Source: an uncultured Bacilli bacterium (GTDB taxonomy: Bacteria > Bacillota_I > Bacilli_A > RF39 > UBA660). From it: DNA of 50,847 bases. Where the stretch lies: contig CANQYO010000003.1 of assembly GCA_947628095.1 (NCBI GenBank), positions 1 to 50,847 on the forward strand, read 5' to 3'. Positions 2,662 to 48,118 of the stretch are shown piece after piece (positions within the stretch are counted from its first letter, which is position 1; the number at the start of each line of letters is the position of its first letter). The position numbers and the translations under genes are program-made. The notes under the pieces were generated by a model, which made no database searches, was not told the DNA's origin, and saw nothing but the letters and a program-made list of their open reading frames with translations.

Positions 2662-2860
2662 TAAAAAAACGAGTTCTTCCTAAAGGACGAAAAACTCGTG
2701 GTACCACCTTAATTTACATATTTCTATGCCTCAAACTTTTTAACGCAAGTAACGTGTTTCCAAGCTCCAAAACCATCTTCAATTTTAAATTTTTGTTTTT
2801 CTCACCAACCAAAACATCTCTTAAAAAATCTAAAATTTACTCATTTCTTCTTTGCTTTAT
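2662..2860 (-). promoter_or_regulatory. T-box leader upstream of metG
   Basis: On the minus strand: AAGGTGGTACCACG T-box followed by the terminator ACGAGTTTTTCGTCCTTTAGGAAGAACTCGTTTTTTT. Candidate AUG specifier at 2774-2776. Candidate -35 TTGAAT / -10 TAGAAT (17 bp) overlaps the end of the spoVT-like gene. Confidence 0.93.
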
Positions 2861-2887
2861 GCATGTATTCTATCATAAAAAAATAAA

Positions 2888-16208: not shown

Positions 16209-16232
16209 AAAACTATTCTTTCTAAACAAAAA

Positions 16233-16306
16233 GTGCACATAAAAGAGTTATGTTAAGGCTGCTGGCTTCCGCCCCTGACCTGGTTCCATTTCTTTTATTG
16301 CACGAC
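16233..16306 (-). ncRNA. ffs: Small signal recognition particle RNA (4.5S-like, scRNA)
   Basis: Minus strand GAACCAGGTCAGGGGCGGAAGCCAGCAGCCTTAA (helix 8, GGAA tetraloop). Terminal stem GTGCAATAAAAGA/TCTTTTATGTGCAC followed by TTTTTG. -10 TATAAA just upstream. tadA-SRP-dnaX neighbourhood as in Bacillus. Confidence 0.95.
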
Positions 16307-16423
16307 TATATTTTATACTATAATTGTAATTAATACAAGTATTTTCGTAAATTTTATAAGAGATTTAAATTGAATTTAAAGTATTATTGTTTCAAAAGAT
16401 TATCAAGAATACTTTAATTTTTC

Positions 16424-33346: not shown

Positions 33347-35209
33347 ATGGAATTTGAAGCCATAGTTGTAGGTGGTGGACATGCTGGTTGTGAAGCAAGT
33401 TTAGCTCTTGCTAGATTAAACCATAAGACATTGTTAGTTACGGGAAATATTAAAAATATTGCCGATATGCCATGTAATCCTAGTGTTGGAGGTCCAGCTA
33501 AAGGAATTTTAGTTAGAGAAATTGACGCTTTAGGTGGTGAAATGGGAGTTAATACTGACAAAAGTCATTTGCAACTTAAAATGTTAAATACTAAAAAAGG
33601 ACCAGCTGTTTGGGCATTAAGAGCTCAAGCTGATAAAATAACCTACCCTAAAGAAATGTTAAAAACATTAAGAAGTACGAAAAATCTAGAAATTAAAGAA
33701 GCTATAGTTGACGATTTAATTGTTTCAAATCAAAAAGTTATAGGAGTTAAGCTTGAAAGTGGTGAAGAAATTAAATCAAAAGTTGTAATACTTACAACCG
33801 GAACTTATTTAAAAGCTGATATTTTAGTAGGAGCTAGTAGAACTCCTGGAGGACCACACGGTGAAAAAGAAGCTAAAAATTTATCAGATAATTTAAGAAA
33901 ATTCGGACTTACTATTCAAAGACTTAAGACTGGTACTCCTCAAAGAATAGCAAAAAATTCCATTGATTATAGTGTTTTAGAACGTGAAGATGGAGATAAG
34001 ATTTTAAGAACATTTTCTTTTGATATAGAACCGCTTTATAAAATAGAAGACCAAGTGCCATGTTATTTAACTTATACCAATTTAGAAACTCATAAAATAA
34101 TTATGGAAAATCTTGAAAAATCAAGTATGTATGGTGGTTATGTAAGAGGAATTGGTCCAAGATATTGTCCTTCCATTGAAGATAAAGTTGTAAGATTTAA
34201 AGATAAAGAAAGACATCAATTATTTTTAGAACCTGAAAGTAAATATTATGATGATATCTATCTTCAAGGTTTTTCAACTAGTATGCCTCATGATATTCAA
34301 GAAAAAATGGTTCATAGTTTAAAAGGCCTTGAACATGCTAAAATATTAAAATATGCTTATGCAATTGAATATGATGCAATTGACCCATTAGAAATGCAAG
34401 CTAGTTTAGAAAATAAAAAAATTGAGAATTTATTTACAGCTGGACAAATTAATGGAACTAGTGGTTATGAAGAAGCAGCAGCTCAAGGTTTGATGGCAGG
34501 AATTAATGCTAGTTTAAAAATGCGAGGTTTAGAACCACTTATTTTAAAAAGAAATGAAGCATATATTGGAGTTTTAATAGACGATTTAGTAACTAAAGGA
34601 ACAAAAGAACCTTATCGTATGTTAACATCTCGTGCTGAATATCGACTTTTACTTCGTAATGACAATGCCGATATAAGATTAAGAGAATATGGACATCAAG
34701 TTGGTTTAATAGACGATATCAGATATGCTAAATTTAAAGATAAATTAAAACAAATAGAAGAATTAACTAATAAATTAAAAGAAATCAAAATATTACCAAC
34801 TGAAAAAGATTTAATTGAAAAACTTCATACCTCCCCTATTCTAGATGGTATTACTTTATATGATTTATTAAAAAGACCAGAAATTAGTATAGATAAATTA
34901 ATGGAACTTGGAAAAATTGAAGAAAAATATTCTGATGCTGTTCTTGAACAAGTTTCAATTGCAATAAAATATCAAGGTTATATTGCTAAAGAAATGAAAG
35001 AAGCTTCAAAACTTTCAGAGCTTGAAGATATAAAAATACCAACTGATATTGATTATAATAAAATACTAAATATTGCTAGTGAAGGACGTCAAAAGTTAGA
35101 CCAAGTAAAACCTAGAACTTTAGGACAAGCTAGTCGAATAAGTGGAGTTAACCCAAGTGATATAGCAGTTTTAAGTGTTTATTTAAAGAGGTATAAGAAT
35201 GAACATTGA
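33347..35209 (+). CDS. mnmG: tRNA uridine-5-carboxymethylaminomethyl modification enzyme MnmG
   Basis: VVGGGHAGCEASLALARL, CNPSVGGPAKGILVREIDALGGEMG. Confidence 0.98.
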   Translation: MEFEAIVVGGGHAGCEASLALARLNHKTLLVTGNIKNIADMPCNPSVGGPAKGILVREIDALGGEMGVNTDKSHLQLKMLNTKKGPAVWALRAQADKITYPKEMLKTLRSTKNLEIKEAIVDDLIVSNQKVIGVKLESGEEIKSKVVILTTGTYLKADILVGASRTPGGPHGEKEAKNLSDNLRKFGLTIQRLKTGTPQRIAKNSIDYSVLEREDGDKILRTFSFDIEPLYKIEDQVPCYLTYTNLETHKIIMENLEKSSMYGGYVRGIGPRYCPSIEDKVVRFKDKERHQLFLEPESKYYDDIYLQGFSTSMPHDIQEKMVHSLKGLEHAKILKYAYAIEYDAIDPLEMQASLENKKIENLFTAGQINGTSGYEEAAAQGLMAGINASLKMRGLEPLILKRNEAYIGVLIDDLVTKGTKEPYRMLTSRAEYRLLLRNDNADIRLREYGHQVGLIDDIRYAKFKDKLKQIEELTNKLKEIKILPTEKDLIEKLHTSPILDGITLYDLLKRPEISIDKLMELGKIEEKYSDAVLEQVSIAIKYQGYIAKEMKEASKLSELEDIKIPTDIDYNKILNIASEGRQKLDQVKPRTLGQASRISGVNPSDIAVLSVYLKRYKNEH

Positions 35210-35912
35210 AGAATTTAAGTCAGAACTTTTAAAATTAAATATAAATTTATCTCAAGAAAAATTAGCTAAATTAGAAAAATTTTATGAACTTTTAATTACT
35301 TGGAATGAAAAGATTAATTTAACAACTATTACTGATAAAGAAGAAGTTTATTTAAAACATTTTTATGATAGTTTAACTTTAATTAAAGCTATTGATTTGA
35401 CTAAAGATTTAAAATTATTAGATGTTGGAACAGGAGCTGGGTTTCCAGGAATTGTTTTAAAAATAGTATTTCCCAATTTAAAAATAACACTTTTGGATGC
35501 TACAAGTAAACGTATAAATTATTTAAATGAAATTATTAAAGAGCTTGATTTAAAGGAAATAGAAACGGAATGCACAAGAATTGAAGACTATTCAAGAATT
35601 AATAAAGATAAATATGATGTTGTAGTAGCAAGAGCTGTTGCCCATTTAGGAATATTAATAGAAACAATTATGCCAACAGTTAAGGTAAATGGGTATTTTA
35701 TAGCTATGAAAGCAAATGTTTTGAATGAAATAGCTGAAAGTAATAAAATTTTAAATCAAATAGGAGCTAGAATAATTCAATGTGAAGAATTTGTACTTCC
35801 TAAAGAAGATAGTTTAAGGACTTTGGTTAAAATACAAAAAATGACTGAAACTCCACTTGAATTTCCAAGACGTTTTGATAAGATAAAAAAAGATTATTTA
35901 AAAAATAAATAA
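35199..35912 (+). CDS. rsmG: 16S rRNA (guanine527-N7)-methyltransferase RsmG
   Basis: LDVGTGAGFPGIVLKI, VVARAVAHL; overlaps mnmG stop by 11 nt. Confidence 0.96.
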   Translation: MNIEEFKSELLKLNINLSQEKLAKLEKFYELLITWNEKINLTTITDKEEVYLKHFYDSLTLIKAIDLTKDLKLLDVGTGAGFPGIVLKIVFPNLKITLLDATSKRINYLNEIIKELDLKEIETECTRIEDYSRINKDKYDVVVARAVAHLGILIETIMPTVKVNGYFIAMKANVLNEIAESNKILNQIGARIIQCEEFVLPKEDSLRTLVKIQKMTETPLEFPRRFDKIKKDYLKNK

Positions 35913-35916
35913 AAGG

Positions 35917-36077
35917 TTAATCTGTTAAAAAGACATGTCGCCTTCTCGTTTTAATACGAGCTATGCAAATGCTAGTAATTGGAGTATTCCACCTTCTGGT
36001 GAGTTAAGTCCCTGGGATAGTGTTGTTGCTTCCATTGGCGTGCGCAAGATTTTAACTAAATCTTTTAAATAGATTAA
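35917..36077 (+). ncRNA. GC-elevated island: candidate structured RNA (alternative: orphan cassette of a lectin-like C-terminal domain, 45-codon ORF 35935-36072)
   Basis: Closing inverted repeats TTAATCT/AGATTAA (35917-35923/36071-36077) and GTTAAAA/TTTTAAC (35924-35930/36050-36056). Adjacent internal hairpins at 35945-35960, 35961-35975, 35980-35991 and 35990-36001. About 40-43% GC against an AT-rich background. Confidence 0.5.
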
Positions 36078-36177
36078 GGTTTCTTTAAAAGAAGTTAAAA
36101 ACAAGATTATCCTTAGTTTAACTAAAAACTAAAATATAGATGTTTACATATTAGATATTAAACTAAAACTATATTAT

Positions 36178-36206
36178 ATCACAGTGGGAAATACTGTGAT
36201 TTTCTT
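36178..36206 (+). terminator. Rho-independent terminator upstream of noc-like gene
   Basis: ATCACAGTGGGAAATACTGTGATTTTCTTTT. Confidence 0.85.
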
Positions 36207-45421: not shown

Positions 45422-48019
45422 ATGAATAATAGTAAAAAAAGCATAGGAATAATAGTAACAGTAGTAGTAATGTTATTAACAGTATTTGGAGTAACATATG
45501 CCTTTGTAAACTTTACTTTAAATGGTAATGAAAATTCTATTCTTGTAACAGGAGACATCTACATGAATTATACTGAAACTAATCAAATTAATTTAACAGA
45601 TGCAGTTCCAATGGATAAAGAAAGTGCATTAAAATTATCTGACAATGTATTTAATTTTACAATAAGTGGCAAAAATCAAAGTAAGAAAGATATCTATTAT
45701 GGAATAAGTATAGTCTATGGAGAAGAACAAGCAAGTAAAACTAGATTAAAAGATGAGGATATAGATGTCTACTTAACAAGTGGAGAAGATGTACTTGTAA
45801 ATGCAAATAGATATAAGAGCTTAAATGATACAAGAATATGGGCAGAGAAAATAGATGCAGGGACTAATTCTTATACAAAAGAATATTCATTACGATTATG
45901 GGTAGACGAGAGTGTAATAATATCAGATACAGATGCAAATAAAGATTATACTCAAGAAGTATGGAATAATAGTTATGCTAGTTATAAAGTAAAAGTAGAT
46001 GGAAATTTAAATAAAATGAACATTCCGTTAGAGATAGATGCCAAAGATAGTTATTTTGAAAATGGAAAATCATATTTTATAGTAAATATAAGCAATTACT
46101 TAAACCCACAAGTTGCGACTAAAACAATAGCAACGGCAGATATTATGAAATTAGATATAACAAGTACAAATAAAGATGTAGTATTCACATATCAAGACGA
46201 TACAGGAAATAAAGTAGATGAAGAAAGTTCAACATTAAGTCAGACTTACACCTTTGATACAAACAAAGTAATAAAAATACAGGTTTATGTAACATCTAAA
46301 AATGTAGAACCAATAAATGCAGATATTAATATTAAAGTAACAAAAAATGATAATGAAACATACGAAGTTTTGAAAAATATGAGTTTAAGAGGAGCGAATG
46401 AATATTATTGTCAAAATAATGGTTTTACAAAATTAGCAGATTGTTTATTAGTATCTGAACAATATAGTAAAGATGTAGAAAGTGCAAAATTAGCTATCAA
46501 AAAGAAAGGTGCTCCAACTTTAAGTAAAACAGCACCTGAAATAACTTATATAGCAACAGCTGAAACCACAGGAGCAGAAGTGACTCAAAGAGGTGGTTAT
46601 GCTTGGGCGTATGGTGATAGTTATACTTTTGATATAAATAACGGGACATTTACATTATCAGGAAATGTGAAAACAAATCAAAGTTTAAGTGATGCCATAC
46701 AAGGAAAGTGGACATGTGGAGCTACTTCAGATAATATAACAAATTGTAATACTATATATCATATAACATTAATGGAAGGAAATACAATAAAAGCAGCAAG
46801 TAGTAGTACCTATCAAATAGCAAATGTTATAGGTTCAGAAGTTGGTTTATATCAAACAACCGACAATGATGGAGATACATATTTTTATCGAGGAGATATT
46901 AAGAACAATAATGTAAAATTTGCAGGTTTTTACTGGAAAATAATAAGAGTAAATGGAGATGGTTCGATAAGACTTATTTATAATGGAACAAAACCAAATT
47001 CAAATGAAATGAATGCATCTTCTGTAACTGGAATAGGTGTTGCCTATAACAAAAAATATTCCGACCCAGCATATGTAGGTTATATGTATGGAGATAATTT
47101 TTCGACTGCCCCAATTAAAAGTAAAGAAGTATATTATAATGGTATAACTGCAAATACTAAGTATTACTTTGGTACTGGATATACACCTAATGATAATGCT
47201 GGAACTTTCAAAATAACTGGAGCTGATTACTTAGGTACATTTACAGAGTGGAACTCAGCTGGAAAGTTAGCAGAAGGTTACAAATATACATGTATGTCGA
47301 CAATAGCCGATGGAACATGTCAATTTTTAATAGAAATAAAAACATTTAATGATGCAACAAGCATACAAGCATATTATTGGACATATGGTTCAACCAGTTA
47401 TGAAGCAATTAGAGAAGATACAGCCAGTAGTAATGCTAAAATAGAACTCGAAAATTGGTATACTAATACATTAGCAAAAGCAAAAGAAGCAGGAGAAACA
47501 GCAGATAAATATATAAATCTTGGTGGAACATTCTGCAATGATAGAAGTCTATCTTCACAAGGTGGAAATGGTGATGGTTTTTCAATCGTACCAACTACCT
47601 ATTATGGAGCATATGACAGAAATGTAAATAAAAAGGCTGCAAGCTTAATATGTCCAAATGCATTAGATTTATTTAGTGCTAAAGGAAGTAGTGGTAAAGG
47701 AAATAAAAAGCTAGAGAAACCAATTGGGTTAATAACAGCTGACGAAGTCGCATTAGCCGGTGGTTTATATAATACTAAAAATGAAAGATACTATCTAAAA
47801 ACCGGAGCTGCTTATTGGACAATGTCTCCTGTTAACTTTAGTTCGATTGCCTCTCAAGCTCGTGAGTTTGATATTGACCAAGATGGCAAGTTCAAAGACG
47901 ATTGGGTTCCTTTTACTACTTCTGGTCTACGTGCAGTAATCAATTTAAAGAAAGAAGTATTATTAGCTGGAGGAAATGGCACAATGGACGACCCATATAC
48001 AGTAAAGTTAGCTAGTTAA
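45422..48019 (+). CDS. Large secreted/anchored surface protein, TasA/camelysin-like N-terminus and lectin-like (WTMSP...GLR) C-terminal domain
   Basis: N-terminal TM IGIIVTVVVMLLTVFGVTYAF; FTLNGNENSILVTGDIYM; C-terminal AAYWTMSPVNF...TSGLRAVINLKKEVLLAGGNGTMDDPYTV. Confidence 0.75.
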   Translation: MNNSKKSIGIIVTVVVMLLTVFGVTYAFVNFTLNGNENSILVTGDIYMNYTETNQINLTDAVPMDKESALKLSDNVFNFTISGKNQSKKDIYYGISIVYGEEQASKTRLKDEDIDVYLTSGEDVLVNANRYKSLNDTRIWAEKIDAGTNSYTKEYSLRLWVDESVIISDTDANKDYTQEVWNNSYASYKVKVDGNLNKMNIPLEIDAKDSYFENGKSYFIVNISNYLNPQVATKTIATADIMKLDITSTNKDVVFTYQDDTGNKVDEESSTLSQTYTFDTNKVIKIQVYVTSKNVEPINADINIKVTKNDNETYEVLKNMSLRGANEYYCQNNGFTKLADCLLVSEQYSKDVESAKLAIKKKGAPTLSKTAPEITYIATAETTGAEVTQRGGYAWAYGDSYTFDINNGTFTLSGNVKTNQSLSDAIQGKWTCGATSDNITNCNTIYHITLMEGNTIKAASSSTYQIANVIGSEVGLYQTTDNDGDTYFYRGDIKNNNVKFAGFYWKIIRVNGDGSIRLIYNGTKPNSNEMNASSVTGIGVAYNKKYSDPAYVGYMYGDNFSTAPIKSKEVYYNGITANTKYYFGTGYTPNDNAGTFKITGADYLGTFTEWNSAGKLAEGYKYTCMSTIADGTCQFLIEIKTFNDATSIQAYYWTYGSTSYEAIREDTASSNAKIELENWYTNTLAKAKEAGETADKYINLGGTFCNDRSLSSQGGNGDGFSIVPTTYYGAYDRNVNKKAASLICPNALDLFSAKGSSGKGNKKLEKPIGLITADEVALAGGLYNTKNERYYLKTGAAYWTMSPVNFSSIASQAREFDIDQDGKFKDDWVPFTTSGLRAVINLKKEVLLAGGNGTMDDPYTVKLAS

Positions 48020-48075: not shown

Positions 48076-48118
48076 AAAAAAACATAAATTAGAAAAAATA
48101 GTTTATGTTTTTTTCATA
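48076..48118. terminator. Terminator after surface protein gene
   Basis: AAACATAAATTAGAAAAAATAGTTTATGTTTTTTT. Confidence 0.75.

Follow-up and report, generated by a model that had tools for sequence, protein, structure and literature searches.

What is the island of elevated GC content that follows rsmG in the genome of an uncultured Bacilli bacterium from the gut? The window, a stretch of 50,847 nt, is contig C3 of the genome G000, a fragmented MAG of 1.23 Mb on 81 contigs, and the analysis refers to its assembled sequence only. The initial annotation had put the GC content of positions 35941-36060 at about 42%; 41.7% was measured over 35920-36039, versus about 20–30% in the adjacent intergenic DNA. 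It had offered a structured RNA and a donor cassette of a surface-protein gene as competing readings. The evidence says that the island is both, and each reading was partly right. It is best explained as one of the template-repeat (TR) RNAs of a diversity-generating retroelement (DGR). Among systems that deliberately hypermutate selected proteins, DGRs are the best known; the usual picture is of a single template next to a single enzyme.

The full element comprises positions 35914-36205 and extends past 36077 to about 36205. It consists of a closing helix, a TR core that corresponds to variable regions (VRs) of surface proteins, a structured 3′ scaffold, and a terminator:

35199..35912, plus strand: rsmG (TIGR00138, 166.8 bits)
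35914..35923, plus strand: 5′ strand of the closing helix P1, AGGTTAATCT (98.6% of cells paired in the covariation analysis of 33 copies)
35935..36045, plus strand: TR core of 111 nt, ATGTCGCC...GGCGTGCGC, encoding MSPSRFNTSYANASNWSIPPSGELSPWDSVVASIGVR (homology to the surface-protein VRs and to 42 other TR cores)
35935..35942, plus strand: conserved 5′ end of the TR, with 36037-36044 as its predicted partner in P2 (identical in nearly all copies)
36037..36045, plus strand: conserved 3′ end of the TR, GGCGTGCGC, which corresponds to the GVR/GLR codons in the VRs (invariant in 33 copies)
36046..36175, plus strand: conserved 3′ scaffold RNA (match to RNA model R1 at 36037-36175, 120 bits; pair counts)
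36050-36057 with 36093-36100, plus strand: P3 of the scaffold (R1 match and pair counts)
36062-36067 with 36086-36091, plus strand: inner helix of the scaffold (R1 match and pair counts)
36104-36113, plus strand: 3′ strand of P1, within the scaffold and followed by a small hairpin (R1 match and pair counts)
36134-36139 with 36169-36174, plus strand: P5 of the scaffold (R1 match and pair counts)
36178..36205, plus strand: intrinsic terminator, ATCACAGT..ACTGTGAT and a T run (sequence; the stem forms in the predicted fold)

The RNA structure was analyzed at two levels. The island segment of the window copy alone folded better than all of 200 dinucleotide shuffles (z −3.3). RNAalifold was applied to 33 copies of the element and yielded seven helices. 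P1 links the 5′ end of the element to its 3′ part, the conserved TR ends pair as P2, and P3 to P5 follow. In the 33 copies 97.9% of the cells were paired, versus 92.5% after shuffling. Changes on both sides were found in 82 cells, versus 24.7 after shuffling, and none of 500 shuffles reached this value. The covariation score was 0.211, versus 0.108 for shuffled alignments, and no shuffle scored as high. Pairing fell to 39–52% when the helix partners were slid. P2 is invariant across the copies; its pairing is predicted and lies outside the reach of covariation. The strong covariation supports a conserved RNA fold and bears out the structured-RNA reading, while some of its details have to be revised. 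The inverted repeats are present, but the conserved partner of TTAATCT (35917-35923) is AGATTA-TCC at 36104-36113 and not AGATTAA at 36071-36077. The small hairpins that had been listed (CTCGT/ACGAG and others) are not conserved ones; they sit in the variable TR core and have no counterparts in other copies. The strong terminator described at 36178 is indeed present. An Rfam scan of the window yielded no match at or above the gathering score at the island, and it returned only a T-box leader (2680-2861, minus strand) and a small SRP RNA (16217-16311, minus strand), both ordinary.

A genome-wide search revealed that the island belongs to a family. G000 holds 20 full elements on 19 contigs, in addition to a degenerate copy beside the reverse transcriptase (RT) gene and a fragment. 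In the closest relative, G003, 25 matches to the RNA model were found, some of them cut by contig ends. The elements of G000 have a constant scaffold and differing TR cores. All elements are built to one plan. AGGGTTAATCT at the 5′ end is joined by a short linker to ATGTCGCC and a core, 108, 111, or 114 nt long, whose last bases are GGCGTGCGC; about 130 nt of conserved 3′ sequence and a terminator come next. Many are preceded by a TTGACT/TATTCT-like promoter 7–8 nt upstream of the first helix, and others directly follow a gene. For the window copy, no clear dedicated promoter is seen. The rsmG stop codon lies 22 nt before the TR core of this copy, which makes transcription by read-through from the mnmG-rsmG operon probable. 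A structured element between rsmG and parB that fits no Rfam family could also be a regulatory RNA or a 3′-UTR element of this operon, without any connection to surface proteins. This is hardly credible, because the same element adjoins many unrelated genes and the rsmG-parB gap of three relatives (G002, G010, and G016) contains no element. From this absence, the simplest view is that the window's species acquired the island copy within its own lineage.

The TR core encodes a C-terminal segment of surface proteins, MSP..F....A..F.V...GE......GVR. About 20 surface proteins of 700–870 aa in G000 carry a matching C-terminal VR, which lies near the 3′ end of the target gene and ends about 30 codons before the stop codon. 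In 29 target proteins, this segment is hypervariable, with a mean entropy of 2.36 bits, compared with 1.13 for the preceding and 0.37 for the following residues. One target lies in the window:

45422..48019, plus strand: 865-aa surface protein belonging to the target family (its C-terminal VR places it among about 20 such proteins)
47822..47932, plus strand: VR of this protein, MSPVNF...SGLR (best TR match G3_C47, score 112)

The initial annotation had aligned the island with this very protein. The segment is homologous, but it is not a recent match to the island, and compared with G3_C47 its VR is changed at 13 of 29 A and 23 of 81 non-A positions. No clear cognate VR of the island was found; the best one, at C14:16511, is changed at 12 of 20 A and 22 of 88 non-A positions. 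GGCGTGCGC is found also at the end of the C14 VR. Comparison of the target protein with Pfam, NCBIfam, and PDB sequences yielded nothing useful. Concerning a possible C-type-lectin fold, the predicted model of the VR domain (pLDDT 77) had no significant fold match. The terminator after the surface gene of the window (about 48079-48117) has an ACATAAA..TTTATGT stem that is found also after many template RNAs. In G003, several template RNAs lie tail-to-tail with a VR gene (contigs C9, C11, C15, C16, and C21).

The 45-codon plus-strand ORF that had been reported (MSPSRF...KSFK) exists. It was rejected as a gene for a translated small protein, since the junction after GVR varies in frame and many copies have a TAG there. 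All 43 TR cores are open in frame and free of stops, and the frame is lost right after GVR, by stops or by junctions that differ in length between copies. This pattern would be expected of a template for a coding sequence, not of a gene. The cassette reading is thus correct in that the core is homologous to the surface-protein segment and its frame is open in 43 of 43 copies. Such a collection of partial copies, homologous to about 20 expressed genes, could in principle be silent DNA donors for RecA-type gene conversion, as in pilin or vlsE, with an unrelated RT. We regard this as very improbable. Gene conversion would leave unexplained the covarying RNA scaffold, the terminators, the A-specific one-way mismatches, and the presence of the same scaffold beside the RT in relatives.

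G000 encodes a single RT, on contig C57, in an operon that also encodes a MutS domain I (MutS-I) protein and an Avd-like protein. The RT is of the DGR type according to its profile matches (PF00078, 68 bits; phrog_1423, E 1.5e-75), its motif GNMTSQ, and its best PDB relative, 8ub7 (E 9e-25), which we take to be the BPP-1 RT. The Avd-like protein matches DivGenRetAVD (34.4 bits), bAvd (32.3 bits), and the PHROG "Avd protein of DGR" (31.7 bits), matches that are significant but under the curated cut-offs. The RT is under purifying selection (dN 0.080, dS 0.915, dN/dS about 0.09). Upstream of the operon, G000 has a degenerate scaffold without a TR, whereas G003 has an intact scaffold and TR at the same place. 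This leader (L044, G000:C57, 2511-2643), a degenerate scaffold with a terminator and without a TR, might regulate the operon. A TR adjoins the RT gene in G003 and in G002, but not in G000, where the 20 TRs are located on other contigs. From the location of the elements and the decay of the local template we infer that the templates of G000, as assembled, could be supplied only in trans. A TR beside the RT is the usual arrangement and not a mechanistic requirement (PMC10907252).

TR and VR sequences were compared for 15 pairs from G000 and G003. The VR differs at 52% of the TR adenines; the corresponding values are 36% for C, 25% for G, and 17% for T. When only codon positions 1 and 2 are counted, 180 of 351 A but only 154 of 747 non-A positions are changed (p 5e-24), and A->N changes outnumber N->A changes (198 vs 109). 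The best TR/VR pairs in G000 retain 11–14 non-A mismatches, and the non-A mismatches indicate old or mosaic pairs in G000 and G003, or pairs whose members are not true cognates. Under a template-mosaic model, the best VR is left with 3 non-A versus 15 A changes. The best permissive base in this model is A for VR-from-TR and T for the reverse, and many VRs are poorly explained. In G002, 18 of 31 A and 0 of 75 non-A positions differ between TR and VR; in G080, which represents another genus, the values are 99 of 195 and 30 of 567. Taken together, the differences are found mainly at TR adenines, cleanly in G002 and G080, and significantly, with non-A mismatches, in G000 and G003.

The non-A mismatches in all TR/VR pairs of G000, the degenerate copy at the RT, and the adenine-poor composition of some cores might indicate that the elements are decaying relics of an old DGR that the RT no longer reads, and that the surface proteins diversify by ordinary mutation and recombination. 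We consider this improbable: compensatory changes preserve the RNA fold in copy after copy, the cores have remained free of stops, the RT is under purifying selection, the adenine bias persists, and G080, which has the same multi-template plan, looks freshly active.

The preferred reading, to which we assign a probability of roughly 0.9, is that a DGR with a single RT draws on 20 self-contained template RNAs dispersed over the genome, and that the island is one of them. Each element would be transcribed from its own promoter, or, in the case of the island, probably by read-through from rsmG, and its own terminator would end the RNA. The scaffold would hold the TR core in a closed loop and recruit the single RT-Avd complex encoded on C57. 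The RT would copy the core and misincorporate opposite adenines, and the mutated cDNA would then take the place of the homologous VR in one of the about 20 surface-protein genes, at its 3′ end. The system may be active at present. What the initial annotation had missed is that the island is a DGR template RNA, that about 20 such elements exist, and that the copying step should be error-prone reverse transcription.

The cores of G000 are not equally rich in adenines. Most have 22–30, whereas the island has 21, C44:850 (L033) 18, and C5:20192 (L029) 13; these three (the island's at window positions 35935-36045) look like already mutated copies. We hypothesized that the library itself might evolve, with mutagenic cDNA, or recombination with VRs or other templates, rewriting the templates. 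This is a tentative idea that we consider rather doubtful; as a test of template-to-template rewriting by A-mutation, close TR-TR pairs were compared, and no consistent A asymmetry was found. If the idea were true, the organism would evolve its own templates, and adenine-poor cores like those of the island and C5:20192 would be already rewritten ones.

G002, of the same genus and with an RT 68% identical, has the surface gene, the TR-scaffold, MutS-I, Avd, and the RT in a row, and is a canonical single-template DGR. Several congeners (G002, G007, G011, G013, and G016) have a single scaffold in the genome, located at the RT. In a wider survey, about 98 genera of the family, each represented by one genome, were searched with a broader RNA model, R2. 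Matches were found in 11 genera, eight with one match and three with many, namely those of G000 (21 matches), G080 (6), and G136 (9, four of them in one cluster). The six scaffold copies of G080 are associated with at least three TR sequences, and the cores and scaffolds of the G136 copies follow the same plan. Multi-template versions in three of about 98 genera suggest that templates have multiplied repeatedly, or that they did so long ago and the trait was lost in most genera. In G080, about 40 VR-like copies in short ORFs of 50–107 aa were observed (L325, C1:122800-124814; L326, C2:28800-31000; L288; L289), several in tandem arrays spaced about 340–400 bp; at least one long target gene (698 aa, C35) lies beside them. 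Most differences between the copies and the TRs fall on adenines, which looks like DGR writing into silent VR cassettes. Of the nine template-RNA copies of G136 (L329, C25:3558-4874; L330-L334), four lie within 1.3 kb, and a target gene is located near L334.

No description of a DGR with a dispersed library of 20–25 template RNAs was found in the open-access literature, while one survey mentions DGRs with several TRs (PMC6642488), and MutS-like accessory proteins of DGRs are already known (PMC10053308). By default, DiGReF searches for templates within 5 kb on each side of the RT (PMC3521204), and surveys restricted to the RT vicinity would miss free-standing templates. Free-standing, multi-copy template RNA genes would give a single enzyme many starting sequences from which to diversify an entire surface-protein family, and the portable scaffold enables a direct test of trans-acting templates.

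The DGR of Bordetella phage BPP-1 (PMC12875486, PMC3240598) resembles that of G000 in several respects: an RT is accompanied by Avd, a structured spacer follows the untranslated TR, mismatches are specific to adenines, and the VR is located at the target gene's 3′ end. The BPP-1 spacer after the TR folds and recruits RT-Avd (PMC12875486). The scaffold described here is its positional analogue, with a putative binding of RT-Avd and no implied homology. In contrast to the one TR of BPP-1, which lies between avd and the RT gene, G000 has 20 separate TRs, each with its own scaffold and terminator, and a decayed local one. The DGR of G002 (G002:C6, L119) has the same surface-protein family, scaffold RNA, and MutS-I/Avd/RT order, but a single TR beside the RT and the VR gene just upstream. 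The crAss-like phages Lera/ct1yV3 (PMC12386605) also have more than one TR per RT, and some of their pairs have non-A mismatches; they carry three TR-VR pairs in a DGR cassette, compared with 20–25 stand-alone chromosomal RNA elements here. Targets remote from the RT that seem to be altered in trans have been described for Thiohalocapsa PB-PSB1 (PMC10907252), cyanobacteria (PMC7517822), and Treponema denticola (PMC4891356). In these cases the targets are dispersed and the TRs reside in the DGR loci, whereas in G000 the templates are dispersed, about 20 per RT.
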